The notes beneath the pieces were generated by a model. That model saw nothing but the letters and a program-made list of their open reading frames with translations, did no database searches and was not told where the DNA came from. Both the position numbers and the translations under genes were made by a program. From Rhodamnia argentea (Eukaryota; Streptophyta; Magnoliopsida; Myrtales; Myrtaceae), in NCBI RefSeq assembly GCF_020921035.1, contig NC_063160.1, positions 17,821,095 through 17,885,094 of the forward strand: 64,000 bases of DNA, written 5' to 3'. This document shows, piece after piece, positions 8,167 to 61,800 of the stretch. Every line of letters starts with the position of its first letter. Positions within the stretch are counted from its first letter, which is position 1.

Positions 8167-9235
8167 GGTCGTTCTCTCTCCGCTATCGCTGCGCTTGCTC
8201 GGAGAAGAGGCCAAGATCCACCGGTGGAGGGAATGAAGAAATGGCGATGGCGATGGCGACACCTGAGAGAGAGTGAGAGTGAGAGAGAGAGTGCGCGAGA
8301 GAATCTCTTTTTGAGGTGTCTCGCAGCTGCCTCGTTTATGGCCACGTCGTCGTTGGCAATAAAAAAACCGAACAATTGGCTAATTACCTTTGCAGTACAC
8401 GGTTGAATTAATTGGTTAGTTATGCTTTACTCCTTGTGAGGATAAATGGTTGCGCTTAAATTTTTTTTGTTTTTTGGTCCAAAAAAAAAAAATGGTTGCA
8501 CTTTACCTTAAATATTCAAAATTTTGAAGCATTACCTTAGATTTTCATTTGACAATGGACGCACGAACCTTTAGAAGTACATAGACTAATTATTCATATT
8601 GCAAATTCCTTTTTTTTTTTTTTTGGTTGGAGACCTCAATTTTTTTTCGAAGGCCGCAAATTCAAGACTTATGGCATTTTTTACTTCTTTTTTTTTGTTT
8701 GCATTAAACTTAGTAGGATTATTTCGATTGGACAAAATAACTAGAATCAATTGGCCATCAAATTTCTTATGGATTTATCATTATGTATATAATTTTAAAT
8801 ACAATTATGGATTTAGTACCTTGATATGTTCGATTTAAACTATAAAAGTTTTCAGGTCATTTGATGGATAATTCTCCGACATGAAATTATTAAGATTTTC
8901 AAACATAAACTGGTCAGAAATTTTGTTGACGGTAAGATCGACCGTCTAACTTTGCGACTGCGCTCGGTGATATTCAATCCCCGCCGTTGACTTGCGTTCA
9001 TCTGCCCGTCCCCCAAAAGGCTCTGTCGGTTGCACCGCCCCGATTTGTATCTTTTTCATGTCAAAATTAGATATTTACCTCAGCAGCTGCGTCAGCTTCT
9101 TCTTCGGGAGGTTCAGCAGAGCGAGCGTCGTCCTCCCTTTCACCATTGACGCAGCTCTAAAATCCTCTAATTTCCCCTGTGTGTTAACGTAATTGCTCGC
9201 AATTGCCATTGGATAATACAGGAATCGCTTCCCAC
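8167..9235. promoter_or_regulatory. Divergent FEY / PEX19 promoter interval
   Basis: About 1.07 kb separates the two start codons, so the leaders and promoters of both genes must lie here. A GA-rich microsatellite (about 8262-8300) sits close to FEY, probably in its leader. The middle (8450-8900) is AT-rich with long T runs. No convincing paired TATA boxes were identified. Whether it acts as one bidirectional promoter or two is inference. Confidence 0.5.
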
Positions 9236-12007
9236 ATGGCCGACCACCATGCCGATGATTTGGACGAACTCCTCGACAGTGAGTTTCTTCATCTCTCTCT
9301 CCCTCTCTCTCTGAAAGATGAATAGCAGGCATATCTTCTGAATAATTCGCATGCTGGTTTTAGGTGCTTTGGACGATTTCCAGAGTCTCAACCTTTCTTC
9401 TTCCAGGTGATTGTTCTAGTACGGTCTTGTTTCTTTGATTTAAATCATCAAACAGTTTGTGGGCATCTTTCTGTTGGGCAATCCTGACCGTGTCAATTTT
9501 TGGGCATTTCATTTGGATGTAGAAGTGGAGATGGTGCTGCGACGAAGCAAGAGGTGGCTCCTTTGCCATCTGGGGTTCAGGGTTTGGGGATGGGATTGCC
9601 CGATTTGAGAAGTAAAAAGCAAAAAGGAAAGCAAATGGCATCGAAGGACACTACCCATGTTACGGAAGCTCTAGACAAACTCAGAGAACAAACGAGGGAA
9701 ACTGTCAGAGGATTGGAATCTGTCACTGGTGCTGATGATTTGGGTGGTAATGCTATGTTGGAAGATTGGGTCAAGCAGTTTGAGGAGCTTGCTGGCACTC
9801 AGGTATAAATCACTCGAATACGATCCTTAGCATGCAGGCTGGGGATTGTGGTTCTGCTGTAATAAATGCTTGCTCATTCACCTCATTTTTGTAAGCAGTA
9901 TAGCGAAAATTTCGTTTGTTTATTTATAACACTTTTCCTTCAATATCTCCTTAGGATATGGAATCTATGATGGAAAACATGATGCAGCATCTGCTGTCAA
10001 AGGAGATTCTTCATGAACCAATGAAGGAAATTGGAGAGAAATATCCAAAGTGGTTGGAAGAGCATGGAGCGACATTGAGCAAAGAAGACTATGATCGCTT
10101 TTCACATCAATATCAACTTATAAAAGATCTTAATGAAGTCTATGAGAAGGAACCAAATAATTTCACTAAGATTGTCGAGCTAATGCAAAAAATGCAGGAG
10201 TGTGGTCAACCACCAAATGATATAGTTCGGGAGCTGGCACCTGATTTTGATATATCCAGTCTTGGCCAGTTGTAAGTTTTCTCACTTACATTGTTTCCAA
10301 TGTAGGCCAGCTCTCATTGTTGAATTTTTCTTTCCTGTTGTGAAATCTGAATATTTATGATGTCTGGCCTTTTCTTTTACTTGAAAATATGTCTTCGTTA
10401 GTTAGTTGGATGATGCATTGCTAGGGGAAAGTTGATACTTCATGGGCAAATTACCTTTGAATCGCCCTACATACTCTCTCAAGTCCACAAGCTTATAGTA
10501 TTTGAGCAACTCCTCTTGGAATTACAATGAGATACTAGAAACACTCAGCTTCATATTTGTGAAGTAGTTGGCATGTATAATTGTCAAACAAAAAAAAAAT
10601 GGTATTCACCTGATGGATACTGGGATTGTCCATCCAGAGAAATTTTTCTTAGGCTAAGCTTCTATTAATACCCCAGTGGGAATTCTTTAGGTTGGTTCCT
10701 GCTGTTAATGAGTGATGCAAAATTTCAAGTATTGTTCGACATTATGTGCTTTCTGTTAAGGTCGCCGTCTCTTTCTGGTTTGTCCTCCTTACATTTTGCT
10801 TGTACCAGCGAAATCAGAATTATATACATAAGGCGTACTTCATGAGTGCATTGAAGAGGGAAGAAGGAACTAGCTGAGGGAGAATAGGGCACCCATTCGT
10901 GGAGAAGATGTAATGAGTTTCAGGATTTTTGGACATGCAAACCTCTAGTTAATTTTGAGCTTCTAGTCATTGCTTGGGAGTTCTGAGCTGAAGGATTGAT
11001 TACTTGACCTTCCTGACTATTTCATGGAACATTAAAGAAGACTTTATCGGTGCTCAGCTGGGGTGTAGGATCAGGTGACATTAGCCTATTGCTGGAATGA
11101 AGCTGTTGTAGAGTGGAATAGCGTCTTCATCGTGAGGGATCATAGTACTCTTGATACTGCTAAGCCATTGGGTGGATATTTAACTGAACAAGGGAACTGC
11201 ATAACCAATATCTGGGCTTGGATTTCATTGGAGTGGGAAAAAGAACTGTTTTTGGGCGTGTGTATTGGTTTTAACATCATGATTAGCTCCTTTACTTGGT
11301 CAAAACCGTCATGCAGAGTACCCTCAGTCATTAATCTCTTACTTTGGAAGACATAACCCTATCCTTGTTCAGTTTTTGGGTGCCTAATTGCTTGATATGA
11401 CTATGTACGGGACGACTAAAGGAATGTGCTGAGACTCTAGAGACACTTTTCCTATTCACTTTTTAAGTCATCGCCGATTGTTGTGCATTCATTCCATTAT
11501 TCATCTTTCTCCATTTAGTTTCCTCATAGTCCTCTCTATTTTCCAGATATGCTTAGCACTTCAAAGACCCCAGTAGCTCTCAGATCATGAGCAGCCTGGT
11601 TGCTGGGGCACAGTTTTAATGACATTTGCATGTCATCTCCGGTGTTACCCATCGGGGATACTTTCTCCTTGCTGGTATCTGTTCATGAGGCCTTGTTGAA
11701 AGGCTAGTAGTGAATTTAAAAGTAAAGCTCAGAATTACCTTTTTGGCTAAAAGAAGGGTCTAGAATCTAGATACCTACTCCCCAGAAAATTGCTTTCTGT
11801 CTTGGGTTATCCTTTGTGTGTCTTGGCTTATATGGAACCACTTGCCAGATTCATTTTTGGTGAATGTGCTTTAATACCTTTATCCTTTTAACGTGCTCTG
11901 CAAACAAGTAGCGGATTAAGCTCATTCATTCAATGGACTCATGAAAGTTTAACTTGTGCAGATCACCCGAGATGCTGGAGTCTCAGCCAAATTGTTGCAT
12001 AATGTGA
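9236..12007 (+). CDS. PEX19: Peroxisome biogenesis protein PEX19
   Basis: Five exons: 9236-9278, 9364-9406, 9523-9802, 9955-10271, 11962-12007, giving 242 residues. PEX19 is the cytosolic, partly farnesylated chaperone and receptor that binds newly made peroxisomal membrane proteins and docks on PEX3. Family marks seen are the acidic N-terminus ([14 protein letters not shown]), the [17 protein letters not shown] block, [17 protein letters not shown], the helical [19 protein letters not shown] region, and a C-terminal CaaX box, Cys-Cys-Ile-Met. The exon 4 frame hits TAA within the donor (TT|GTAAGT). The true end was found 1.69 kb downstream, where a 46-base exon restores the conserved SPEMLES tail and CaaX. 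Length is normal for the family. The two first exons are only 43 bases each. Confidence 0.95.
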
Positions 12008-21087: not shown

Positions 21088-21528
21088 TCAAGCAGTGAGC
21101 TCCTCTTCCTTGTGGGTCTCAATGGTGACATCAGATTTAGGGTAGGCAACACAAGTGAGGACCCAACCTGCATCCATCTGATCATCATCCAGGAAGCTGC
21201 CGTCGCTCTGGTCGACGCTCCCCGCCACGACCTTGCCTGCGCAGGACGAGCAAGAGCCGGCGCGGCAGGAGTAGGGCAAGTCGATGCCTTGCTCCTCTGC
21301 TTGGTCCAAGATGTAAACATCGTCGGGGACGTCCAATTCGACTTTGCCTTCAGGGGTGAGTAGGGTGACCTTGTAGGTGGCCATGGCAGCCACTCTCCCA
21401 CGGCCAGAGTTGACACCAAACAGGGCCTGACCCACATTTGGGAATGCCCTGAGTCTGTTCACCGGCTGCATCCTCACAAAGGAGGAGCTCACCATGGTTC
21501 CTGAGAGAGCAGCTCCTGCAAGTGCCAT
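21088..21528 (-). CDS. FD: Chloroplast [2Fe-2S] ferredoxin, leaf type
   Basis: Single-exon gene of 146 residues. Residues 1 to about 49 are a Ser/Arg-rich plastid transit peptide, and the mature protein starts near [13 protein letters not shown]. The four iron ligands are Cys88, Cys93, Cys96 and Cys126 in the CRAGSCSSC and VLTC motifs typical of plant-type ferredoxins. The C-terminal HKEEELTA is the acidic tail used to contact FNR. It carries electrons from photosystem I to FNR, ferredoxin-thioredoxin reductase and nitrite reductase in the stroma. The lack of introns is normal for PetF/Fd genes. The G-box about 125 bases upstream fits a light-regulated photosynthetic gene. FD1 versus FD2 cannot be separated without an alignment. 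Confidence 0.96.
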
Positions 21529-22674
21529 TTCTTTCCTCTTCTCTCTAGTTTGGTGTGAAGAAACTGAGAAGACGGTCGAGACTTTGAGCGTCTTAATACT
21601 CTGAAAGTGGGAAGGACAACGGGATAGGGGGTGCCTCTGGCTTGTGACTTGCCACGTGGCGCGTCCTGGTGCCTCGCTCTATCTCTTTATCATCAAGACC
21701 AGATAAAATTGGGTGACTGGTGAGAAGGTCGACCGTGGATGCCACATTCCTCCCTAGAGATAGTTTTTGGCGTCAATTTTTTGTTTGTATGCGTGTGTGA
21801 CAAAAGAAAGCCACATTTCTGGTCCATTTTCCTGCCAAGTTTGATTTTGTGGTCTCTAGTTAATAATAAGTGCCTGGAGATGGAGAGCTTCCCATAAGAA
21901 AAAGGAGCAAAGAAAGAAGATTCTCGTTCCATTTGGCGACTGGTAGAGATTCTTTGAATGGTATGTTGTGTACCACACACATAATAGAGGTCCGGGAAAC
22001 TCCCAAGTCCAATTAAAGCCGATATTAGTGTAATTCTTCTACATGCGAACAGCACTAGCAACTGCCCGCCTATAAGGACCCAACGGACAACCAGCAAAAC
22101 CAAACGTTTACAGCTGCACAGCATCAGGAGTCGCATGGAACCGCAACCAGAAAGCGAAAATGGAAAAACAAGGCCCCAGCAGCCGTAGCAGACACCCGAA
22201 GAAACTCACTAACTGGAGGGCGATTATGCATTCCAAGGCCAAAACTGGCATATTACAAGTAAACAATAGCGGAAGCACATGTTTATCAGAATCACAAAAT
22301 TCCTTCTTATCAACTACTTTCCTGCTGATGTCCATATTCCAGACAGCAAAAATAGCATTACAACGTTAGCACTCTCGAGAAATTAAGTATCCACTGGGGC
22401 ACCTATTTGTAAAAAGTTTCTGATAGCGAGAACAACCCCTGCACCCTATTCATCTTACAGCTAGAATATAAAGGGAAAAAAAATTCTCAGGATCCCCCAG
22501 GCTAAGCAGAAGAAAGTGTACATCCCCATCCTCGAATTCCGTGATAACCATCCGGTGACATTCTAAATAGTCCGCAAGGTGACAGGCTGGTGGCTTCCTC
22601 TCGATTTTTATTGTCATCTCCACAACCAAAAGGTACCAGGAAAAACCATTTCGCCCACTTCCCATCATGAAGCT
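21529..22674. other. Ferredoxin promoter and TM9SF 3' UTR
   Basis: Both neighbours are on the minus strand. The part next to 21529 is the ferredoxin promoter; the part next to 22674 is the TM9SF 3' UTR, of unknown length. Minus-strand frames at 21693-22136 and 22108-22335 resemble nothing recognised. Confidence 0.5.
21653..21658. promoter_or_regulatory. G-box (CACGTG) upstream of ferredoxin
   Basis: A perfect palindromic GCCACGTGGC core lies about 125 bases upstream of the ferredoxin ATG. Such sites bind bZIP and bHLH (PIF/HY5-type) factors in light-regulated promoters. A weak TATA-like run (minus-strand GTATTAAGA) lies near 21591-21600. Function is inferred from position. Confidence 0.6.
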
Positions 22675-25600
22675 CTAATCACATTTGATGTTTCTGTAGA
22701 TCCTCCTTACAAACAAATTCGAGCCCAGATATCCAACAGCACCTGTGCACAATCATCACACGTAGTTGCTCAATATTCCAAGAGAAAGAGAAGACTGATG
22801 AAGTCGTTCAATTAAATGGCAGCCTTCAAATAATGGAAATTCTAGAGCTAACAGACTCCAAACACATTGGTGCCAAACTAGAAAAAATTATGGCACTCTC
22901 ATAAGGTACTGAACTAGCTACTAAGTTACTAACCATCGCCTACCAAAGAGAAAACCTGACATCAAAAAAGTTTAAATATATGTATTACAAAGTAGACCAT
23001 GCAAGTGAATGTTTAAAGCAACTGATTTACTAACTTCCTCCCTATAGACCAAAAGATTTAGGGATTTAGTGTCCGCCTAGACAAGCTGCATCTAGATATC
23101 TAAATGAATGTGCACAAACCACCATATACCAAAATACGCAACCATGCGAAAGAAAAACTTCACAGAAAGCTGACTACTAAGTCTTTTTTATTGTACAACT
23201 GATGTTGCAAATGAAAGTCATTAGACCCTCTCTTTTGGGTGGGGGTGCCGTAAATAGAGCAATTAACCATTTTTTTTAATTTTGGTGCAATCACTAAGGA
23301 CGACATCATACTCACCACAAAGTATTCCCAGTCCAAGACAGAACATCAAGGTGTATCCAAAATAGAAGCTGGTCTGGAAGAACCCTGACATCTTAGTCTT
23401 CACATGGTAGTAATAGATTGAGTACAAGTATACATAGACAGCGGTTGAGGCAGCAGAGAAAAACGAGGTCCACTGCCAATGATAATTCTCAGCATTTAAG
23501 AGGAAGTATGTGCCCACGATTGTTACACAAACAGTAACAATGATGAGAATTAGGAAAACAAGCAGCATAAATCCATACACATAGTACACCTGTCAACCAC
23601 AGTAGAGCTAAATCAGATAAGGAATTATCATTAACTTCATTGGTTTGTTCTAGAAATCAAGATCTTCCAGTAAGGGGAGCTGGCAAAGTACCTTGTAATT
23701 CCAGAAAGAAGTGAAGACAAAGTACATCTCGATAAATATGCTGCCAAAGGGTAACAATCCTCCCATCATCGATACCACAGAGGGTGTCAAGTACCACTTC
23801 TTCTCAGGAATGGGTCGAGGAATAGTTTTCACACGACATGGGTTGTTCGGAGCCCCACTCCAGTTTCTTCCTACGACCGTTCCAAGGAGAGCCAGGGGGA
23901 ATGAGATGAATGCCCAGATAACGAAAACCACTACCATAGTACCAAAAGGAATTGCTGCTAAAGACCCATAGAATATAGCAATGGTATTGAGGATGAAGCC
24001 AATTCCAAAGCACATAAATGGGAATAAAGATGCTGTGAGGATCATCGACTTGATCCAACTTTTACCTACACAAGATAACAATAATTCATAATCAGCAAAC
24101 ACACCTTAGAAAGTAACTTTAATCAATAACAAAGATCAAAGGCAAATGAAAATGACTACGATACGTAGAGAGCACTGACCGCCATGACGTGAGTACATTC
24201 CACCGCTAACATAACCAGAAATAAAGGAGGTGAAGGCATAACATAGGATAAAAGTTGTAACAATTGCTCCTCTCCTGAACAATAGCAATTCATGTCATGA
24301 CAAAAAGAAAACATCCGATTGCAACATATCGAGAACAGTAAAGCTGCATTATATTATTTCAGCTAGCAGATTATCAATGAAAGTCTGTCTTAAACAAAAT
24401 TATCCCAAATAATCATAAAGTACGAGAACATACCCAACATATAACATTCCAACAATCGCCAACAATATGACAAGGAGCACAAGTAGTGCAAGCTGAGCAC
24501 CAGTGCCAACCACAGCTGACAGCAGTACTAAATTACGTGGAGGCCGAAAAACATCGCCATGGACAAGTTTCCAGCCAGACTCTTCACTCACATCCCTTTC
24601 CTGGGTAGAGCATCAAATAGTCATCATAATTTAGTCAGCAAAACTGCTACATCAAAAAGAAGAGACCCATCATCAGAGCACAGGAGGGGACAGCAAAAGA
24701 TCAAGAAAGAATCACCAGAGTCTCCAGATCATCATCTTCCCTTGCGTATTTTGCATAGTCATTTCTCAGAGTCCGCATCAAGATCATCGACACCAAGCCA
24801 GTTAGGAATATCACCATCATGAATGAATTGAAGATAGAAAACCAATGTATCTGTCACACGGTAGAAGTGCACAGAAATTAATGTGGCAAAGCAAATTGAA
24901 CAGAACGTCCTGGAGCCAAAAATAACGCTACTTTCACGAAGATTACTAGATGATCCATAATGCTATCGAATATTGATAAACAAATGACCGAAGAAAACGA
25001 CTGCTAGAACATAAATACCCCATAAGTAAATGGAGACAATGGTCTTGTGCTTACAGATGTACATAACTGAAAAATAGTAAACCACAATACTAACCTGATG
25101 CTCGAAGAAAGGGTAATCCAAATAAACATCAAAACGTCGTGCAAAAGCAACATTAGTTGGTTCCCATTTGACAGAGTATGTCATGTCAAGTGTCTTTCCA
25201 ACTTCCAAGGGCTTCGGATTCTCTGGCGTCAGACTAGCATGAATAATCTACCCAAAAGAAGAGTGGTAAGTAAGCAGCAGAATCTTTAACTCTTATAAAT
25301 AACAGGTGAACTGATAGTCACACCTGATTTTTGTTGTATTGAACACTGATGCTTTTATGAGTGTATAGTACGTGCTTATTGCTATCACTGTTCTTATCAG
25401 GGTGCAGTTCACCAACAAAACCTAAAACAGGAAAGAGAAGCGTGAGACTAGAAACCATTCAAAGTTTTGAAATTCAATTTAACAATAACTATTAATTACA
25501 TACCCCATAAAGGCAGATCATCTGGACTTGCATTCAGCAGGCAATATCCCAAAGCGTGAACCAGAAAGACATCAAGTTGAAATGAGTAAGGGCAAATAAC

Positions 25601-28755: not shown

Positions 28756-29200
28756 AGTATACATCTAATAAATTTATTCCAAATAATTTTTTTGATAACA
28801 AAAAATCTCAAACTGATATAACCGTAACAAATTTACTCAAATTATTTTTTTGACTGCAAAAAATCCCAAATTGATGCGCTTGTGACAAATATACCCTATG
28901 TTGATTTCCATTAAATTTTATCGTCAAGTTGCTGAGTTTGATGATACGTGACAATTAACCGGTATATCAATTTGAGATTTTTATCCCGTGTTTGTTAAAA
29001 GTGTATCGGTTTGGGGTTTTCGTGTTATTAACTCAATTTAACGAAAATTAACATAGTATAAATATGTTACGGTTATACCAGTTTAGGATTTTGTATGGTC
29101 AAAAAATTAGTTTAGGGTAAATTTGTCATATATATATACCAATTTGGGGGGGTTTTATGGTCAAAAAAATAATTTTGGGTAAATTTGTCACATGTATACT
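28756..29200. mobile_element. Fold-back (inverted-repeat) element with nested duplications
   Basis: The left arm (about 28756-28890) and right arm (about 29050-29200) are reverse complements. Both begin with agtatacat at the outside and carry 'caaattta[c/t]..', 'attatttttttga' and 'ataaccgtaac' phrases. Each arm holds two copies of a unit of about 60 bases. An additional 28-base tandem copy (gtaaattygtcacatgtrtac type) follows at 29179-29235. There is no coding capacity, so it is non-autonomous. It resembles Mutator or fold-back MITEs, but the superfamily is not fixed and no clean target duplication was found. Confidence 0.6.
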
Positions 29201-36504: not shown

Positions 36505-39500
36505 ATGGACCTGTCGAATTCTCCATCAACTCTCTCCCTGGGGTTCCTGTCCCCCGGATCGAACCAAGTGTCCGATGATGCAGTCTCGCTCCAGCTCGAC
36601 CGGAAGCAGCCAATCCCTCTTCAATTGCTCGAGCCGCAGGCCCAAAAACCCGAGAACAATGGCACCGTGGGCGCAGAGAATGGAGAGGATGAGGATGACG
36701 CGGACGTTGAAGAGTTCCGCATTTTAGGCCACTGCATCAAACGGAGAAGAACAAGCGAGTCAACGTCTTCTTCCACTAGCTCTGCTAAAAGGATTTCGGG
36801 CGCTGCGGATATGGAAGCGAGAAGAGCTGCAATTAGATCGTGGGGCAATGAATCGATTAGCGTGGCAGACCCCGATCTTTTTGAGATAATGGGGAGGGAG
36901 AAGAACAGGCAAGCGAAGGGAATTGAATTGATTGCCTCGGAGAATTTCGTGTGTAAAGCAGTAATGGAAGCACTTGGTAGCCACTTAACAAATAAGTACT
37001 CGGAAGGATTGCCTGGGGAGCGGTACTATGGTGGGAATCAGTACATCGATGAGATTGAAACTCTTTGTCAGGAGCGTGCATTGGCAGCTTTTAATTTGGA
37101 TTCTGAGAATTGGGGAGTGAATGTACAGCCATACTCATGCACTTCCGCAAATTTCGCAGTTTACACGGGACTTTTGCTTCCTGGGGATCGAATCATGGGG
37201 TTGGATACACCGTCAGGTGGTAATACTAGCCATGGGTGCTATATGCCTGATGGAAGGAAAGTTTCTGCGGCGTCGATTTTTTTCGAGAGTATGCCCTATA
37301 AGGTCAACCCACAGACTGGGTACATTGATTTTGATAAACTTGAGGAAAGAGCAATTGATTTTCACCCCAAGATTCTTATTTGTGGGGGAAGTTCGTATCC
37401 TCGCGAATGGGACTATGGTAGGTTTAGGCAAGTTGCAGACAAGTGCGGTGCAGTATTGATGTGTGACATGGCTCAAGTCAGTGGTCTTGTTGCAGCTAAG
37501 GTGCGAATTTTTGTGTATCTATATAGATCTAGCTACCTGCTTCTCATCATTGGTACCTTATGTTTTATCTCGAGTGCGGACAGCTATGGTATAACTTCCT
37601 TTTTTTTTGGGGGGGTGGTGGTGGGGGAGGGGTTGTGGATTTATTGGTGCATTTGTCTCACAATGTGTTATTCGAGGTGAGGTGATACTTGTCTTTTCTT
37701 ATTTGTTCCTGGTCCTGCACTGCGACTCCCTTAGTAAAAGTAGATTTTGCGAGGAAAAGGATTCTTAGTAAAACTTGGTAGTAAGGGACTTATTTTGATG
37801 CAGATACTAAATCAGTTCATTCACTCCTTAGATTAGATTGATGGGATTTGGCGTAAAGTGATTCCAGTTTACCTCTACCTGATCTGGTACTGGTCAACAC
37901 AAAAAAAGAACTATCATCTAGGAAGGCGAGACAACTGCTCTAGGTAGTTTGTCTGGCCAAAAGCAACAGAAGTTACATTACTAGTAATATAGAAGCATCA
38001 GTGGAGATCTTTAGTACCATCTCTCTTCTCTCTTGTTCCCTGATGCTGTTCCTGCACTGGAGATTGAAATCCTTGAAAGTTTGACCTTTTTGTGTAGACA
38101 AATTGTATGGATATGAGCTACAAAGTTCTTTACTTCAGTGGTCCTGTTTGGACATATTACTCGGAACTCACCATTGGAAAACTAAATGGGTACTTGGCAA
38201 CAACAATTATAGGGTCCTTCTAGTACTAGTGGGGTTGAATTTGATCTCTAATTTAAAATAGATAAGATTCGTTATGCTGGGTAGGTTTTGCTCACAAGAT
38301 TTTCATTACTAGCACGTTATGTTTTGTTAACTCTTGTTTGTTGTGGGGGTGGGGGTTGTGGTGTTGGAGGGAATGGAAAAGGAAAATGTCAATATTAACT
38401 TAACTAAAAGTTTTTCGGAAATTTGATACGGGTGTTCCCCTTTCGTGTGGCCATAATGGGGCATATCTTAATAACTGTAGAAAAAAAAAATTAACTTCAA
38501 TGAATTAAAAGGTCAGAGAACCGACTTTGTTTGTGGTGGTTGGGTTGGGGGGGCGCAGTAGCCCGACTTTCTATTAGATTAAGCCCGCCCTTAATAAGTA
38601 GAACTCATTCTGCTGGTTGAATGAGGGGAGTCCTCAATAAAGTAGGGGGTGTGATGGACTCTATATTTTAGTTCACATCCACGAAAGTCCAACTTAACAA
38701 TAGATAAAGGCTTTATTTGGTGTATTGAAAAAATGAACGGAAGAAAAGGGAGGAAGCAGATTGAGGCTGCAGTTCCAGTATTTTGTCTTGGAAAAGAAAG
38801 AAAATGCAAACGAAGGTGAAAATAGAGGGGATTGGATTTGACAAGCTTTCAGTCTCTCTCTCTATAATACACTCATCCTTTCGTTTTTGATGAATTTGTT
38901 CAGTTTCAAGTGTCATAATATTTTGGGAAGTTGTAGTTATATTCGTGGGTGATGTCCTTTCAGGAATGTGCAAGTCCCTTTGACTACTGTGATATTGTTA
39001 CCTCGACCACTCACAAAAGTCTTCGAGGTCCTAGAGGAGGTATAATCTTTTACCGGAAGGGTGCAAAACCAAGGAAAAGTGGAACCCCTTTATCTCAAGG
39101 AAATGAAATTGAGTACTACAACTTTGAGGAGAAGATAAACTTTGCTGTTTTCCCATCACTCCAGGGAGGTCCACACAATAACCACATCGCTGCTCTTGCA
39201 ATAGCTCTAAAGCAGGTAGCCACCCCAGTATATAAGGCTTATATGCAGCAGGTAAAGAAAAATGCTCAGGCTTTAGCACATGCTTTACTGAGAAGAAAAT
39301 GCAGGCTTGTGACAGGAGGCACGGATAACCATTTATTGCTCTGGGATCTAAGGCCTCTTGGATTAACCGGTATACTTCTATCCGCGAATGCTGTGTTACA
39401 TATCCATTTTCATGGAGATCAAGCGTATTGTGATTTGTGTGTGTTCATTTTTGTTTACTGAATTCCTGCTTTTCTTTCTGTTGTCTCATTGATTTCTCGT

Positions 39501-43549: not shown

Positions 43550-43558
43550 CAACTATAA

Positions 43559-43765
43559 AGGAAAATTTCAAAAAAGGGCTCAAAGTGGTCTCATTTTTTC
43601 AAATAAGGGCCTAGAGTGAACATCGTTTCAAATAAGCGCATGAAGTGCCCAAATCATTTCAAATAAGGGCCTAGTTGAAGGACATTTCTTTTAATCTTTT
43701 GGCCTTTTCTTTTCTGTTTTTATTTTTTTCTCCTCTCCTCCCCTCCTGTTCATTATCTCCTCTAG
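43559..43765. repeat. Left terminal inverted repeat of the Pack-MULE
   Basis: Pairs with 44575-44779 in reverse complement. Shared phrases include tttcaaataagggcctag, aaggacattt, cttttaatctt, ggccttttcttttctg and ctcccctcctgttcat. The inner boundary is approximate. Confidence 0.85.
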
Positions 43766-43767
43766 CA

Positions 43768-44474
43768 CGTCTTCTTCAACGGGTCCTCTATCCCTCGCAC
43801 GAACGGGAACTCCCGCTTGTTGTGCAATACATGCGTGATCGCCGCCGTCGCAAGGTTGCTCATCAGCGGCGCCCCTCCCATCGCCACGCACCACGCCTGC
43901 CCGTCCACCAACCGCATCCGCACCTACTCCGGGACGCCAAACTCCGCCAACGTGGCCCGTCACACCTCCCAGAGCCGAAAGTTGAACTCGTCCATCTCCA
44001 GCGTGTACGTGCGCGAGAACGGGAGTGATGCCGAGCTCGTCGGGTCGTAGCACGGCACTAGGACCGGCTTCGACATGTCCCTCGGCGTCGGCTCCCTCTT
44101 CGCCCCGTCTTTGAAGGACTCCCTCACGAGCCTCTCGAGCGCGGCCATCGCCGTGACGTGGAGCCGGCGGAGCCCCTTTGCGAGAGCCTCCGTAGGAACC
44201 CGCCCGAGCCGAAGATGGGCCGCGAGAGGTAGAACTTCCGGTTGTGGTCGACGAGGAACTTCTACGTGTCGTCTTCCCGAAAAGCGGGCAACCTGTGGTC
44301 CTTTGTGGAGAAGAGCATGGCGATAAAGATGCCGCCTTCGCCGGTGCTCGCGGCAATGTTGAAGTAATCGGGATGCTGGTGTACGGGTTGCTGGACTTCG
44401 ACTTGAGGGCATGCTCTAGATAAGTGAGGGCTTTGCCAAGGAGGATGCCCCCGCAGGCCGCCGTGATCGACCCA
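43768..44474 (-). pseudogene. Captured patatin-like phospholipase A (pPLAIII type) fragment
   Basis: Minus-strand frames match the patatin-like protein family (acyl hydrolases of the pPLAIII/PLP6-9 group) in the right order: GGILLGKALTYLE, then FNIAASTGEGGIFIAMLFST, KFLVDHNRKFY, GGFLRR, KPVLVPCYDPTSSA, LPFSRTYTLEMDEFNFRLWEV, RATLAE and AAITHVLHNKREFPFVRGIED. It is broken by in-frame stops (TAG at 44262-44264, TGA at 43960-43962 where relatives have Cys, another TAG shortly after) and by at least one frameshift between GGFLRR and the KPVLVPCYD part. The segment lacks the family's true N- and C-termini. It lies wholly between the TIRs of the Pack-MULE, so it is a captured copy, not a resident gene. 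GC content is far above the flanks. Confidence 0.85.
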
Positions 44475-44574
44475 ACCCTCTCTCTCTCTTTTCCCCGTTG
44501 AGTGTCTCTCTCTCTCTTTTCCCCGTTGAGTGCGTCAGTAGATGGAAGATGAAGACGACCATGTATTCAAGTCT

Positions 44575-44779
44575 GAAGAGATGATGAACAGGAGGGGAGG
44601 GGAAAGGAGGAGAAAAACAGAAAAGAAAAGGCCGGAAGATTAAAAGAAAAAAATGTCCTTCGGTTAGGCCTTCATTTGAAATGATTTGAACACTTCGAGT
44701 CTTTATTGGAAACGATATTCATTCTAGGCCCTTATTTGAGAAAACGAGGCCACTTCAAATCCTTTTTTGAAAATTTCCC
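44575..44779. repeat. Right terminal inverted repeat of the Pack-MULE
   Basis: Reverse complement of the left repeat, with scattered substitutions and a few small indels. The outer end abuts the 9-base target duplication at 44780. Confidence 0.85.
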
Positions 44780-44788
44780 CAACTATAA

Positions 44789-50500: not shown

Positions 50501-53500
50501 AGATTATATTGGATGGGCCGATACAGAGTTCAGATGAGGAGTCTGACTCTGCCATTCCAAAGCGTTGGACCTTTAGATCTCAGCTTGCAGCTTTTGACAA
50601 AGCCTGGTGTGCTTATTTGAATAATTTTGTGATGTGGAAGGTCAGGGATGCCAAGTTACTGGAGGATGATTTGGTAAGAGCAGCTTGCCAGCTTGAGCTG
50701 TCTATGCTGCAAACCTGTAAGTTATCCACAGAGGGAGAAACTGGTTTGCTTACACATGACATGAAGGCTATTCAGAAACAGGTCTTACTTCCTCACAGCC
50801 AATCATCACTCATTGATGTAATAACTTAAATTTCTCAGCGAGGCAAACTTAGGATTCAACATTGAATACTTTGGTCTTTCAACTGAAAATTCTGTTTTCA
50901 TGTGGCGTCATCGCCACAGCAATTTAAAACTGCTTATTGTGTGGACGGGTATAATTCGAATTATTGTGACAGCATAAATGTATCTCTTCTGGGGGATCTT
51001 TTTTAAGGCGGCAGCCAGTTATGCAACTTTAGACACATGGGACATAAACATTTGTAAAAGGTTGGCGAGTTATGTAGCGGTTTTTACATAGAATTTTCAT
51101 GTTTTTAGTATTAGAAATGAAAAAATAGATGGATAAAATCATTTTTGTCTCTTTTTGAATAGTATCATGATTTTTTCTATGCAGGTTATTGAAGATCAAA
51201 AACTTCTGAGGGAAAAGATACAGCATCTGGGCGGGGATGCTGGGATTGAGCGGATGGAATGTGCTCTTTCTGAAACACGAAGCAAATACTTTCAAGCTAC
51301 AGGGGAGGGAAGCCCATCAGGTTCACCAATGAGCAATGTTCTCTCTCCAAGCTCTGCAAGCTCATCTGATGGTTCCTCCATTGCAAGCAATGAGAGAAGG
51401 AAATTGAGCGAGGATGATGAGAGGCCAAACCGTGTGGTTCGATCTTTATTTAGAGAAGATGTAACTCCTTTGCCAAATGAGTTTGGTTCGTTATCGCTGG
51501 AATCTGATGGTCGGACAGGGACTTCTGGCATACAATTGGCGACTGAGAATGAAATGATTGTGAATGCATTACTCCATGAGCAGCGACCTATTCTTCTAAA
51601 CGGTTTCAGCACCAAAAGTGACAATGAAAATTCGATTAAGGTTGGTGGTCTGACCTCAACATTCGGCTGTAGTGTCAAACTTTCTAGATGTACTACCATT
51701 TGAACTTTTATACTGTCAACCACAGTTATGTTAAACACAGTCTCCTGCTGTCTCCTGAAAGCAGGGAAAAATTAGGCAGGCAATGGAAAAGGCTTTTTGG
51801 GATGGCATCATGGAGTCCATCGAAGGGAATGACCCTCAGTATGATCGTGTTGTCCAGCTTATGATGGAGATGAGAGATGAGATTTGCGATATTGCTCCAC
51901 AAAGCTGGAATGAAGGGATCACTGAAGCCATTGATTTGGACATTCTCTCTCAGGTAGCCCATTCTCTCTCAGTGATCTGATCTCCACGCCCCTGTAAAGT
52001 TTCTTTCGTATCTGACCAGATTGTAATTTGTGAGGTGCAGCAGTAATACACTGATGAATTCATAGTTAATCACATGCTACTTTAAATGTTTACTTTTTAT
52101 CAGTATCAATCGCAATTTATGTTCTTTTTGTCTTAGGTTTTGAAGTCTGGTAACCTGGACATTGATTACTTGGCAAAGATTTTGGTGTTTGCGTTGGGTA
52201 CTGTGCAAAAGCTCTCCTCTCCAGCTAATGATGATAAACAGAAGACAAGTCACCAGCAATTACTGAAAGAACTAGCTGAGATATGTGAAGAAAGAAATGG
52301 CTCAAAGAATCCACATGCCATTGCTATGATAAAGGGTCTGCGATTTGTTCTGGAACAGATTCAGGTGCCCGTGCTTTTGCTTATGTTGCCTTTCTGTGCG
52401 GTATCTTCATCTGTAAACTATTCTAATTTAATTGAGCTCTTTCATGCTGGAATGGTAATGACAGTTTAGAGATGAAGATTGCTGTGCCTAATCCACATGC
52501 TGGATTTTGTTTAATAGTTTATGGATGGCTACATCAATCCTTGATTGTAGTTCAGTTGGATGGGACTGCTGTCATGTAATGTCATCTTTTTTAGAATATG
52601 AGAATTTTGATTTGATAGGCTGATTAAATTAGTTGAGTTGTTTGATCTAGATGATGCTTTCTAATGCAGGAATAATCATCCATTGTATGCATGATTAGCC
52701 TAGTTTGTTTTTGGTTATTTAGTTTACATGTGGTGCGTGAGATACCCGGTATCAGACAGATTTGACTTTTGTTGTGCCCTGAACAGAACTCCTATTTTGT
52801 TGGCACAACATGTGACAATTATATAATGGTTAATTACTTTTATAGGCACTAAAGCTAGAGATTAGTTTGTTGTGCCCTGAACAGAACTCCTATTTTGTTG
52901 GCACAACATGTGACAATTATGTAATGGTTAATTACTTTTATAGGCACTAAAGCTAGAGATTAGCCAAGCTCGTGTCAAAATGATGGAACCGATACTGAAG
53001 GGACCTGCTGGATACGATTACCTGAGAGCTGCTTTTTCTCGTTGTCATGGACATCCTTCAGATGCCCTCACAGTTCTGCCAGCTGCTGTACAATGGCTCT
53101 CATCTCTGAAAAATGGCGTTGATCAGGAGTGGAATGAGCACACTACATCTCTCTCATCATTGTTGAGCCAGGAGAGTTTATCTCAAGGCTATACGCCTCC
53201 CACAACCCTCAGAACTGGGGGAAGCTTTCTGGTGAATACAAATGGCAATCGTTCTCTTCTCCCCGGCGATTCAGGAGACAAAACAGGTATCATTGCAAAG
53301 TTAGCTGCTATACTTTTTGCTGTTGCTGGATGTGAAAATTTTGCCGCATTTGAGATCTCCTTTTGTTTGTGCACCAGGGAATCCAATCCAGGAGTGTAAA
53401 GGAGAAAGAGTCGACCTGTTGGTTAGAATTGGCCTGTTAAAGTTGGTCAGTCGAGTATCTGCTCTAACTCATGATGCCTTGCCGGAGACTTTCATGCTTA

Positions 53501-54446
53501 ACCTCCCCAGGTTAAGGGCTGTTCAGGCTCAAATGCAGAAGATCGTGGTAATTTCTACGAGGTAATAACTCCAAGTGAATCTGACTCCAGAGTTGGTATT
53601 TGCTAAAATATGACAAAAAATATAAGCAATGGCGTGAGTTGAAGTTGGTCATTTACTAAAATGAGACGAGGAATAAGGGATTGGCATGAATTGAAGTTGA
53701 TACTCACTAAAATGTGACAAGGGATAAGGGACTGGCATTTTTTTCTTTTTTTCCGGTCAGAGGCATAAGTTGAAGTTGATACTTACTAAAATGTGACAAG
53801 AAATAAAGATTGGCATGAATTGAAGTTATCCGTGTTCACACCCATGGGTGTCTTTTTAGTTTGTGCAGGATGTGCTAGCAATTGTCCTGTATTTGTAAGC
53901 TGCCATCAGCCATTTATTGAGATGCCTGTTGAACTTAATTGGAAATTACTCCTGCATTACAGCATTCTTGTTTGCCGACAAACCCTTCTCAGCGAGCGAG
54001 TAGTAACGAGTGCAACAGACATGGAAGGCATATTATCAGACTGCATTCAAAAAGTGATTGAGCTTTTGGACCGTGTTGAAGATGTGGGTATTGAAGAGAT
54101 TGTCGAGATTTTGAGTAAGTTTCCAGTGAATAGTGAAGAAGCTGTGGATACCAAGAGTCACCGATCAAGGAAAGTGGTCATGGCTAGGATGCTGGGGAAG
54201 AGCTTGCAGGCTGGGGATCCTGTTTTTGAGAGGGTCTCGCTTGCTGTTTATCTTGCTGCGAGAGCAGTGGTGCTTGGGGGGAACCCTCCCATTGCAAAGA
54301 AATTGGCGGAAACGGCATTGCGGCCAATTGGGGCAGTGGTGCTGACTCCAAGGGTGGTCGAAGCAGCTGAAGTTTTAGCAGTTGCGGCGTCTGTGTCGGT
54401 GCGTGTTCATGGACCGTGGTATGGTTGTATTGTTGATAGTTTGTAA
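47589..54446 (+). CDS. T-complex protein 11 (TCP11) domain protein
   Basis: Eleven exons: 47589-47780, 48683-48807, 49171-49615, 49732-49847, 49998-50781, 51185-51640, 51765-51953, 52137-52364, 52944-53286, 53378-53561, 53963-54446. All phases agree and give 1181 residues, the size of plant TCP11-like proteins. Order: a start with GIALDFP and [13 protein letters not shown], then a long Lys/Arg/Glu-rich coiled-coil stretch (about 65-290), and Ser-rich linkers. The TCP11 domain (about 450-1160) includes [37 protein letters not shown] and [18 protein letters not shown]. The start is the first in-frame ATG in the long leader frame; upstream codons 47457-47588 have only TTG. Molecular function in plants is not established. 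Exon 9 is preceded by a 98-base duplication that copies its acceptor. Confidence 0.92.
52768..52963 (+). repeat. 98-base tandem duplication across the exon 9 acceptor (TCP11 gene)
   Basis: Two adjacent copies (52768-52865 and 52866-52963) match except for one base (tatataatgg against tatgtaatgg). Each contains the intron end, the 3' splice site tttatag|G and the first 20 bases of exon 9. Only the second copy continues into the conserved exon. Confidence 0.95.
53594..53830 (+). repeat. About four imperfect ~52-base tandem repeats, TCP11 gene intron 10
   Basis: Repeated phrases 'actaaaatgtgacaag', 'ataagggattggcatgaa' and 'ttgaagttgatac' recur at roughly 52-base steps, with one copy interrupted by a T-rich insertion. 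Intronic minisatellite with no coding role. Confidence 0.75.
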
Positions 54447-55893: not shown

Positions 55894-58800
55894 CTACAGC
55901 TCTGACTTAGATTCAAGGTCAAGTTCCTCTACCGATGGCTCATCACCCTGTGAATCGTGCGACTTATCCGAAGCCCCTGCTTCTTGAAGCTCAAATTCAT
56001 CCTTAAGAATTTTTGCAGTAAACGTTCTTGCCTCTAAGTCGAGATCAGGCCATTCAGAAACTATTCTCTTCGCACCCTGAGAGGACAACAAAAACAAAAT
56101 TACATCAAAACTATATGAAACATTTTGGCAGTGGGAAAAGAACAAACCCAACCCAATGAACTTACCTGAAGCTTGGGTTCTTTTGTCATAGGATTGTTGC
56201 AAAGATCTATGGTCTTTGCCTTGGATTTGGTGGCTGTACCGCACCAGGATTCACACCACAGCCATTCTTGGGGTAATGAGAAGATTGGCACCGTGTGCTG
56301 AGCATAATTCGGGAGATCCTGAAGCATGGGAGATGGCACTTAGATAAACAACTAATATGTCTATGCTCGTGAAATATTAAGCAGTGCTTCCTAATTTAAC
56401 ACCTCGCAAGAATTTCCTCAGAGAGATGCAACTATAAGCTCACACAATATTCAAATACATAAGAATCTCTCATGCTGAAGAATTTGCAGTTTATTATTCA
56501 AGAACCGACCTGGTCAAGATTGGACAGACTGTTTGGATCCTTGCTGAGAGATTCATAGAACACTCTCAGGTTATCTCCTGCTGCAGTCTCTCGAAATTTC
56601 ACCAAATCAACAACGTATAGAGCACTGCAGAATGACATCACAATTCAATCCAATATATGATACCAACCGAGCCAAAAGGATCCTAAGGACACAGTGGAAC
56701 TGCCAAAAAAACCTACCTTATATGATATGGTCTTCCATGTAAGTGCTCCTTCCAGAAACCCTGTTTTTGTGAGAATAATAGAAAAACTCACTTAGGGATG
56801 TAGTCACTAATGATCTGAAAGGGCAAGAGCCTTCTATTGCTTGTCATAAAACACAAGAAAAGATTGATCTGAAAGGGCAAGAGCCTTCTATTGCTTGGAA
56901 TAGAACACAACAACAGACTGATTTGAAAAGGTGAAGGCCTTCTATTGCTTGGAATAAAAATCAAGAATAGTTTTGTACTTGTCTCCAAAAGCGATATCCA
57001 TCCATTTCCTTGTTGTTGTCACAAAAAGGAGTATATGCAAGTGGTCTTCCTTTCAGATCCATGTCATAAAGTTCTCCCATGTCTGCTCGCACCACCTGAT
57101 CTGCATCAACAAATATAACCTGTTGCAAAGAGGGATAAATATAATTTAGATGTCATAGAGAACTGAAAATAGCATGGAGTAGACAGTCAAAAGGCAAAGT
57201 CATAGATATCACATGTCACCTTCTCTAGAGAAAGGGGAAAGATGACATCCAAGAACAAAATTTTATATGCCCATATAATCCTTTGCTTTTCCTTCTGCTT
57301 ATGTAGCCATGTAGGCCACTTGTAGGTGATTAATCCATAATCGAAACCATACTCATGAGCCATATGTGGGATCACATCCTGTGAAGTTCAATGCAGAAAA
57401 GTAAGCAAGTATAATGATTTACCTCTCTTAGTTTTAGAGAGGGTAGAGGCTATTAAGAGAGACAGAATAAACCTTAAATTGAGGGGAGAGATAATTCTTT
57501 ATGAACCAAAATTTCACAGGGCGCTGTGTATTCTTGAGGACACTCAAGATCATGATTTTCAAGAAACGTTCGTACCTGCCATAAGATGCCATGAAAATGT
57601 TAAAGCTGGGACAACAAAGAAAAACTATTAGTCCTATCGTGATGTACTACTACAAACATATTTTACCATGAAGCTGGCACTTGATACCGATTGTTATGCT
57701 CAATAATAATTATACATTATGAGAAGGTACTTCAGGACATGAAAACTAAACTTTACAAACAATTGATAAATTATGCGTACAATCATCTCAACAATAACAG
57801 AAAGATGTTAAAAGGAATTCTTACAGGTGCCCAGAAGCAATAGAAAAAATGTTAATAGGTTTTCCATGCCTTCCACCCTTCCCATGCTCCTAGGGAAATA
57901 GAGTCAGAAATACAATGAAAATAGGTTAGAAACTTGCTCTGTCTATACCTCACATGAAAAACTGTTTCCATTTTCTTTCCTTCTGTGTCCATAAAATGAA
58001 ACACGACGTGAAAATTTTGAAATGAGAAACTGCTCCATAAGATGGGAGTCGAGATGTGGAAGACTTAATAGGCATGGTTTTTTTCTTTTTTTTGGGTCAA
58101 ACGTAGGCATGGTTGAGAGTGCCAAATTTACCACTTGTTTGAGTTGGTGACCTTCAAGACATGAAATGAATAGGTATTACAACCCTCTGTGTTAGATCAC
58201 AATATACAGATGGAAATATCACCCCATTAGCCACCAAAAATAGCTTACTGACTTAACAGTGTCAAATATCTACTGATCGAAGAATAAAGTTCGCTCCATT
58301 GCTTGGCTTTCACTGCTATTTGACATGTTAGGCACCAAAGATTAAAAACTACAGAGAAAACTTACTTCAGCCATACTTCTACTCCCTGATTGCTCACTGC
58401 CACCGAGTAAAGTAGATGCCCATTTCAGTATGTTAGAGTTCCAATTCTCGGTTCCCTAAAAAGTTTAGAACAGCTTCATCAGTGGACAAGCTATACTGAA
58501 GAGAACAATATCCAAAGAAGAAAAAAAAGAAGAGAACTGACTCTCTTTTCTTGTGATTGGCGCTCATCATCGCTTGAAACTAGTAACTTTTCATCTTCCT
58601 TGCCTTTCTTTTTCACTACTTCCATATGAACTACCTTTCCCCGCAAATCATTAATCGTGATACGCTTTAGTGAAGGCTCATTTCGACTTCCCCCATCATC
58701 TTCCTTCAGAATATAAAGCTCGGAACTTCTGCCTGGAGCAAGTTGTAGGTACCAAACCCCAGGAGAAACTTTCATCTGCCAATAACCCAAGTTGGCCATA

Positions 58801-61800
58801 ACAAGGGTATCAACCAGGTGCGGTTTGCTCTTTGTTCCAAGAATCAACTGAAGGCCACGAGGAGGTTCATGGTCTTTCTCAGAACAATGACCTGAGTTAG
58901 GCAGCCCATGAGATGGTAAATATAAATAAGCAGGCATTCAATAAGTTAGAAAGGCTGAACTCCATCTCACCAGTTAGGACAAGTGCCTCGAGCTCAAAGA
59001 CAGCTTGCAGGGTTCTCGTCTCTCCAAGATTCTCGAGCAAAATGTTATCCAGGTCATGGCTGAAGCATTTAGGATTGGAACCGGAATTAAAAACAAAATG
59101 AACAATTTATGCAGTCAACCAGAAAAGATGATGCACCAAAAAAAATCTTCGCTTATAGAAAATGCGTCCTGCAAATCATTTAATGTGAGAGATCCATTTT
59201 TGCTAATTTGTAGAAGAGTATCATACACAGCAATGACAGGCTCTACAAGCCATGGCTCAGGAACATCAAGATTCATGGTGAGAGTTTTGGACAACGGCAT
59301 ATTTGCAAAGAAAGCTCTAGGTCCATTTATTGAGTAGTCAACACTGCTGTAATCCTCCTGCAAATCGAAATGGAAGTTAGAATAACAATTGTCAAGTTAA
59401 GCTTGAGAAATTTTAAAGATATTCGAGATCGATGATACCGTTGTCGGCACCACATATCTGTAATAATTCTTCAAAGGAAGATCCACAAGGGAACTCTGCA
59501 ATGCAACCGTAACGACAGTAAAATGCCCAAGTTCTGTCAAACCAAGTAATAGATGCAAAAGGAATCCAGAACTTGGTCAAACATGCAACTTGCATGATTG
59601 CTAATGCAATATCAGGTATGGTTTCTGTAAAGTTGAGAAAAACAGAGACAACAAAAGCAAAGCCAACAACAAGACAACATGCATATTTATTGCGGAATTA
59701 AGAACAATAGACTTAGTTCCTCCCGGGCGCATCAACAAAAAAATTTGCCATGCAATCTCAGATTCACAGCTTTTCCATTGACTCAACATTATACTCTCGC
59801 ACGTCAATTGTTATCACTATACACAATTTCCGATCCCACAATATATGACATCATGCCTCAAAATCTTGCTATGTCACATGTATGCGTGTCCGAAACCCGA
59901 ATAACTGAAAGAACATCCGTGATATGAAAATTTCAGATCTAATCATGTCCAGTTCAAGTTTCGGGCCATCTCCTATAGACAGGTTCAATTAAAATGTGAA
60001 TGTTATAAACCCAAATGGCCTGAACCAAACAGGAAAGCGCACTAGAATTTTACCCTATTTGTCTTTCATCAATTCCTCTAGGGTACGCTTGTCCCCTTTT
60101 TTTAAAAAATTGCCATAGATTTTCTTCCCAAAATTTGAAATCGTAAAAAGGAAACATTAAGATTTGAAAAAGATTGTAAAAACTCTACTTGTAAATCTGT
60201 GTATTTTCTGAAAGATTTAAGATACTTGACATTAAATAAAACTAATCCAAATCGCCGTGTGGAAAGAAAATAACATAGTACAAAGTAAAAGTAACTCCAA
60301 ATAGACCTAGCTTCAGCCCTACAATCACTCCTATTAAAGGCCCAACATGGAAGTCCATAATATGTAATGCCTAATCCATGTGACACGAAGCCTCGCAAAC
60401 TACTTATGATCAGTTGCTTCATGCCAACATTCTTGTTATCGTCAGCCTTTTGCAAAAACTGAGCCCCCCCTCTCTCAATTGCTCATCCCATATAGACTGT
60501 TTAGCTAGAATCAAAATCCAGCTGGCTGCCGGCACCAGTGCATTTAAGCACGAACTGGTGCAAAAACCAGTCTGGGCAGCAATTCATGATTCAACCAGAG
60601 TCAACAGGTTGATTAAAGGTGATGTCAGCAAATTTAAGATACAATGTATAAAATAGACACATACAATAACATCGTCAAAGTCAGCAAAGGTCAGATAGGA
60701 AAGGCGGGTGCTCCTCCCTTCCCAGTGAAGATGCATGTTCACATTTCCTCAGAATCAGCTTCACTCTGTTTTTAAGTGGGGGCAGAGCCATATTATTTAG
60801 TGCCTTCCTAGTTATTAAATTGTGCTGTTGGCAAAGTGGTAGAGCAGTAACACTCAAATGCAGATGTTAGGGGTTCAAATTCGCTCCAGCCAAACAACTC
60901 TCATGCAGATTTGATCAAACAGGTTTGACCCTTCACGGGGTTGATTGAATGGACCAGGTCAACACCAGGTCGGCCTGGTTCTCTGACTGCTCCTGGTTTT
61001 TGTTGTGTCTTTTGTTTTTTTTTTTGGAGGGAAGGGGGGGTTGTTGTGGGTAGGGTCCAGTTATGGGGCATGGCAATTTCATCGAGAACGTAATGCTGAA
61101 TTTGAAGAACACTTTCATTTACGAAGATAACAGAAACTCCTGCTTTCAAGCAGCAAGCTTGACCAGAGAAAATGATAAATCACATAGCTTCTTCAGGATT
61201 CACGTATGACGAAGACAACCATCAACTTCAATGTACTGTCATTCAACTTCTCGAGTTTGCTATCTGTTGAATGCAATGGCTTCTTGGCAGGAGACCGAGT
61301 GATAACAACATGCCTTAGGTATTGGCATAGCAAGGACTTTTACAAGAAGAAAGCTACTAAGATCTTATTTACTCCTTCAAATAACACGAAAAGAACACGA
61401 ATTAAGCTCTTATAAAAAAATGCTCTGGAGAGATCTTTATTTTTACTCACCATGGGATTGAGTACAATTCTCATACTTGGTTGAACATACTTCCACAAGA
61501 TGCGAAGAAGCGAAGCTAGCTTCTGCCCAGATGGACTCAGAGGATCAATGACTGCATCAACATGGACACTAGCATTTGCATCCCCCAACAAAACCGCGCT
61601 GAAAACAAACAATGTGATTAGAAGTTATAAACAGAGATCAACACATACTTACAGAATTAAAGGCACAGGCTCTTAGAAATTAAAAAAGGAGGAAGATTGG
61701 CAGAATCTAATAGTCTCACCAAAAAGAAAAGCAAATAATATTTGCCTACATTAAATTTATCGGCCAACATGTGGCAAATTGTTTTTTTCTGGTCCCAGGT

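Follow-up and report, generated by a model that had tools for sequence, protein, structure and literature searches.

The closest described systems are the Pack-MULEs. PMC3310237 gives target duplications of 9–11 bp and terminal inverted repeats of typically 100–500 bp for MULEs, describes tomato Pack-MULEs as commonest at 1000–1200 bp, and reports a GC preference of capture in rice and maize; GC-rich capture is described in relatives of rice as well (PMC4858842), and Pack-TYPE elements are the subject of PMC8903248. The element considered here comes from a 64,000-nucleotide stretch of Rhodamnia argentea DNA (C11:17821095-17885094, hereafter the window). It and its relatives share with the Pack-MULEs terminal inverted repeats of about 200 bp, 9-base duplications, the lack of a transposase, an identifiable host gene fragment, GC-rich cargo and a size of about 1.2–1.6 kb, and nothing was found that sets them apart. 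The nearest single parallel is the PM-ZIBP family of tomato, in which, according to PMC3310237, one captured fragment is present in 14 copies that group with a putative parental gene. Most PM-ZIBP copies are described there as having tandem terminal repeats, whereas the repeats here are single, and the present family differs also in the 22 copies examined and in cargo that comes in two forms, long and short. With MuDR-type MULEs that carry a transposase the likeness lies in a related element elsewhere in the genome (L074, below), where transposase domains of the MuDR family are combined with similar repeat ends and a duplication of 9 bases; the window element differs in having no transposase. 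One literature search pairing Pack-MULE with patatin returned no paper from the collection searched. The window copy is a clear but ordinary Pack-MULE, in which every structural feature tested was found.

The element spans 43559-44779 of the window (1221 bp). The original prediction, made from the letters alone, had placed inverted repeats of about 200 bases here, with a perfect 9-base duplication exactly at their outer ends, and both are real. The left terminal inverted repeat (43559..43762, plus strand) and the right one (44575..44779, minus strand) were each delimited by blastn against the other; in a self-alignment of the element with the window, 43560-43762 aligns to 44575-44778 across 207 columns with 80.7% identity (E 3e-50), which gives repeats of about 204 bp, long as those of MULEs are. 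The left duplication, CAACTATAA at 43550..43558, abuts the inverted repeat and is identical at 9 of 9 bases to the right one at 44780..44788, a length that falls in the 9–11 bp MULE range. A repeat finder reports the inverted pair as one block of 132 nt at 82% and another of 69 nt at 78%, and inside the left repeat there is a diverged internal direct repeat (spacing 60, 49 nt at 78%). The identity of left to right repeat was considered as an insertion clock and rejected, because the window copy and its nearest relative (L021) show one and the same imbalance in how far the left and the right repeat have diverged; the two right repeats are 88.7% identical to each other, with divergence in common.

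As to the neighbourhood, serine hydroxymethyltransferase exons (36505-39458, plus strand; closest PDB matches SHMT7 and SHMT6) precede the element, and a Tcp11-domain gene identified by Pfam (52944-54443, plus strand) follows it, its first matching frame adjoined by a 98-base tandem duplication at 52768-52963 (99% alike). Minus-strand frames at 58494-58937, 21091-21678 and 23653-24105 correspond to a UDP-glucose:glycoprotein glucosyltransferase, a 2Fe-2S domain protein and an EMP70 protein, respectively, and an inverted repeat at 28758-29136 (arms of 78 nt at 77%, with 223 nt between) is possibly another small inverted-repeat element.

The interior is unlike its surroundings in GC content, as had been claimed: 0.609 overall and 0.628 over 43768-44474, against 0.409 for the whole window. 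It holds two pieces that match one gene, an intact patatin-like gene at a locus on contig 5 (L048). The captured coding fragment (43777..44471, minus strand) is 84% identical to 1552-2247 of that locus and equals codons 79-310 of the intact gene, and a captured piece of the 5′ flank (44514..44587, minus strand) is 78% identical to 2651-2723, which lies 170-242 bases upstream of the ATG. The stretch between the two matches (44472..44513) aligns to no part of the gene; it contains most of a CT-rich 27-base unit (44478-44504) that is directly repeated at 44506-44532. The 403 gene bases that separate the two pieces in the gene, start codon included, are absent from the window copy and present in the long copies. 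The three in-frame stops of the original prediction are there, at 44262-44264, 43960-43962 and 43924-43926 (codons 148, 249 and 261 of the intact gene), while its single frameshift has to be corrected to at least two frame changes, the minus-strand interior reading patatin-like in three successive frames (1 to 2 to 0). Aligned to the intact gene, the copy has 6 gaps shorter than 100 bases and not a multiple of three in length, coding and non-coding gaps counted together. No Pfam match was obtained for the window copy, either from its five open frames scanned separately or from a joined read-through, and in an element of such size there is, by those five frames, no transposase. Against PDB, the best sequence match of the window copy alone was patatin-17 at a weak E of 0.039, and the last interior piece by itself drew one unrelated match (E 0.82). 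The patatin identity of the fragment is firm because of the 84% DNA match to the intact Patatin gene, and it is by this route that the alignment with patatin-like acyl hydrolases, read from the sequence at the outset, is confirmed.

A search for the intact parental gene had been proposed, and a source-like one is what the contig 5 locus contains. Among 31 genomic matches to the interior, the best outside the repeat family was C5:3933064-3933737, at 85%, and the captured region is C5:3933051-3934222, 1172 bp. The gene, an open frame of 429 aa, is read from the minus strand and has its start codon at 2481 in locus coordinates; it scores 61.2 bits against Pfam Patatin (cut-off 27.7) and matches patatin-17 in PDB at E 7.7e-31, and its protein appears to resemble the plant pPLA-III group. 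Since the captured sequence ends at about 2723-2725 and the ATG is at 2481, the captured piece comes from the gene's 5′ part and comprises 242 bp of upstream sequence and about 310 codons. This captured part is also the GC peak of the gene (0.643 vs 0.442 in the rest of the locus). No repeat match was found in the 4501 bases of the locus at E 1e-5, and comparison with three other elements gave only 26-30-base matches (E 5e-4 to 7e-4); the element thus carries a fragment of a host gene whose parent-like form stands repeat-free elsewhere. Further host patatin-like genes match the interior over parts of it, at 62-74%, and three weaker interior matches (C9:21328777, C1:10928241 and C11:19570504) stand outside the copy counts. 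A Pfam PF01734 search of the genome found 27 places, 3 of them inside family elements (L026, L027 and L039).

The original prediction had leaned on the existence of other elements with the same repeats, and these proved plentiful. In the genome to which the window belongs (346.7 Mb, 74 contigs), a search with the left repeat gave 1372 candidates; the 40 that were scored have 83-100% identity, 100% being the window itself and 83-92% the other scored places. These others are covered by 26 loci, making 27 examined with the window. The repeat pair lies within the fetched stretch in 25 of the 27, the exceptions being one copy apparently split, with the rest of its fragment about 2.9 kb off (L032), and one for which no right repeat was found up to C8:25836500 (L030). 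The repeats and the same patatin-like fragment occur together in 22 of the 27 loci, window included, and hence at no fewer than 21 further places, which is the multiplicity expected of a mobile element; the other five (L033, L037, L040, L041 and L044) have different cargo. An exact terminal pattern was found at 70 places, its backward control at 0, and all five elements fetched from seven extra pattern pairs have an exact 9-base duplication, which in one case consists of A alone. The GC contrast of the window copy recurs in the 19 other patatin-like element interiors (0.555-0.637, vs flanks of 0.312-0.445).

For the duplication count, the ends of the 25 repeat-bounded elements were fixed from repeat alignments alone. 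The duplication is exact at 9 of 9 bases in 18 elements and agrees at 8 or more in 22, against 7 exact matches in 600 mismatched pairings of left and right flanks, a control figure that owes 6 of its 7 matches to one duplication sequence common to L020, L023 and L031. Exact duplications of 7, 8, 10 and 11 bases at the same ends number 1, 2, 1 and 0. Four of the non-exact cases agree at 8 of 9 bases (L022, L026, L037 and L043) and three at 4-5 of 9; two of these three (L034 and L041) become exact if one end is shifted by one base or if 10 bases are allowed, and in the third (L042), where a partial left repeat is present besides the full one, the element ends are unsure.

How these copies arose can be read from their breakpoints and their phylogeny. 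When the 20 fragment-bearing elements other than L030 and L032 were aligned to the gene, the fragment started at 1552-1558 of the locus in 19 (at 1616 in L042) and ended at 2723-2725 in all 20. The whole captured piece is kept in eight copies of 1575-1625 bp (L027, L028, L029, L034, L035, L036, L038 and L039); the short form, to which the window copy belongs, lacks about 2248-2650 of the locus, start codon included, and four elements (L022, L023, L031 and L042) show other or further losses. In a tree of 26 rows and 794 columns, all 22 copies form one group with support 96/93 on a short branch (0.029) beside the source-like gene, in a topology where the outgroup genes L047 and L050 are joining long branches, L047 has an unusual base make-up and L042 fills 42% of the columns. 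The 11 rows of the short form cluster together (100/100), and the nearest relative of the window copy within the tree is L021 on contig 2 (100/99; 90% identical). The common breakpoints and the single tree group therefore show one capture, then amplification. Repeats, duplication, 22 copies and a source-like gene together uphold the proposed Pack-MULE with a captured patatin-like fragment; the capture itself stands, now extended to 5′ flank plus coding piece, with the difference that it most likely took place once, in an ancestor, rather than at this site. We put at about 96% the probability that the window element is a decayed, non-autonomous Pack-MULE descended from one ancestral capture of the 5′ part of a patatin-like gene and its later amplification. 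The window copy is a deletion derivative from the short-form subfamily.

Evidence on what might have moved these copies comes from a genome search with PF10551, which gave 474 candidates, of which 150 were scored. The search for a transposase partner was confined to places near the exact end pattern, and one of the 150 transposase places lies within 10 kb of any of the 70 pattern places (at 4.5 kb; the next nearest is at 21 kb). This place, L074, holds at 3015-9717 (C3:8703714-8710416) a 6.7-kb element with MULE, DBD_Tnp_Mut and SWIM domains, PF10551 and PF03108 both scoring above cut-off, and its transposase frame contains one in-frame stop. Its inverted ends are 68% alike and have TTAATTAAT on both sides, in a flank whose AT repeats let a 9/9 duplication be read from more than one choice of ends. 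The outer 110 bp or so of the window's left repeat matches the two ends at 82% and 75%, so that ends in common with a transposase-bearing element are found over part of the repeat. L074 shows that repeat ends of this type belong to MULEs; it is at most a candidate for the active partner, because the repeat match is partial, its own ends are 68% alike and ambiguous, and its frame has a stop.

The course of events is then as follows. An ancestor with these terminal repeats copied 1172 bp of the L048 gene, or of a form of it, into its interior, by a copying step that we infer from the literature. A MuDR-type transposase, probably acting in trans as the related 6.7-kb element suggests, moved the copies into new sites, mostly AT-rich, with a 9-base duplication at each. 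One lineage, with the window copy in it, dropped some 400 bp, the start codon among them, and multiplied in its turn, which gives the order capture, amplification, deletion and second amplification. The cargo has since decayed without visible protein constraint, and no present activity of the copy is visible in these data.

Other readings of the locus have to be weighed against this one. The patatin-like stretch could have been here before the repeats, as an ancient resident gene or a pseudogene inserted by retroposition, and have come to lie within a transposon by accident. The GC-rich interior does differ from its surroundings, as that reading allows; the same fragment is nevertheless enclosed by these repeats at 21 other loci too, its ends agree to a few bases in 19 of the 20 copies measured, and it contains sequence from upstream of the gene's ATG, all of which makes chance framing vanishingly improbable. 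It could also be supposed that the captured frame encodes a small working protein or forms part of a chimeric gene, the more so as the long copies keep an ATG at the gene's start position and nine copies have longest frames of 123-229 aa (any strand, any ATG). What decides here is the distribution of changes over codon positions 1, 2 and 3, counted from pairs that reuse common branches and so are not independent. With L022, L032 and L042 set aside, differences per site are 0.146/0.165/0.142 among ten short copies and 0.087/0.073/0.078 among nine long ones, with no excess at third positions, whereas the host gene pair L048-L049 has 69/54/104 differences. The copies change evenly across codon positions, as neutral DNA would, and the values for all 22 copies against L048 (0.113, 0.120 and 0.166) fit neutral change in the elements combined with constraint along the branch that leads to the gene itself. 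The window copy in addition lacks the start region and has its three stops and frame changes, so that neither the open frame nor the purifying selection of a functional patatin-like gene is found in it. The codon-position counts led us to reject a protein-coding role, which we regard as very improbable.

The remaining alternative concerns RNA rather than protein: transcripts initiated in the repeats, or read-through hairpins, might give rise to small RNAs that match the parent gene in trans. Regulation of the parent and small-RNA-directed methylation are called possible for such elements in PMC3310237 and PMC4858842. In the present family, twenty copies jointly cover 748 of the 1172 bp of the captured gene part with exact 21-mers, and nine long-cargo copies each have 68-140 exact 21-mers in common with the gene; the window copy, with 4 exact 21-mers and 1 exact 24-mer, has the fewest of the 20. 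Judged by such matches, there may be room for small-RNA action by the family and hardly any for the window copy, and we consider action on the parent unlikely, if less so than a role in protein.

Besides the patatin-like piece, related repeats carry other cargo. The five differing elements of the repeat search have interiors with a GC content of 0.572-0.590. In one of them (L044) the piece matches the N-terminal part of exo-polygalacturonosidase in PDB (E 2.8e-5), its one Pfam match being to a pectate-lyase-like family below cut-off (E 0.019), and a sixth element (L079) has the same polygalacturonase-like cargo as the five. L083, with no repeat match in 1501 bases, may be the source of this cargo. 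An 81-aa polygalacturonase-like stretch is free of stops in some copies; selection on this open cargo was tested for and rejected, there being no third-position excess among six rows (L033, L037, L040 and L044, with L084 and L085, whose repeat matches are partial; gaps or splits ruled out the use of L041, L079 and L086, L083 being the likely source and L087 a host paralog). Three further elements (L075-L077) have one interior in common, and the pieces in L077 match the N-terminal part of GH3 enzymes (residues 20-91 of GH3.6 at E 3.8e-18 in PDB; Pfam GH3 at 44.7 bits). L078 contains a HIRAN-like piece at 23.4 bits in Pfam, just below the cut-off of 24.7, and presumably resembles a RAD5/HLTF-type helicase. 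The repeats of L075-L078 are 65-77% like the window's and for this reason represent related subfamilies at best. A more far-reaching but improbable idea, only slightly more likely than RNA action on the patatin-like gene, is that related repeats have repeatedly copied GC-rich 5′ ends (patatin-, polygalacturonase- and GH3-like, perhaps HIRAN) and so might have spread promoter-proximal pools able to steer their parents via RNA.

A single window copy by itself alters nothing. As a family, these elements make a well-resolved case: a single capture, later steps that can be put in relative order, and an intact source-like gene that the genome still contains. Since N-terminal parts of several genes are found within related repeats, the family could serve to ask how MULEs choose their cargo, and it could also show whether the preference for GC that PMC3310237 describes in rice and maize holds here.
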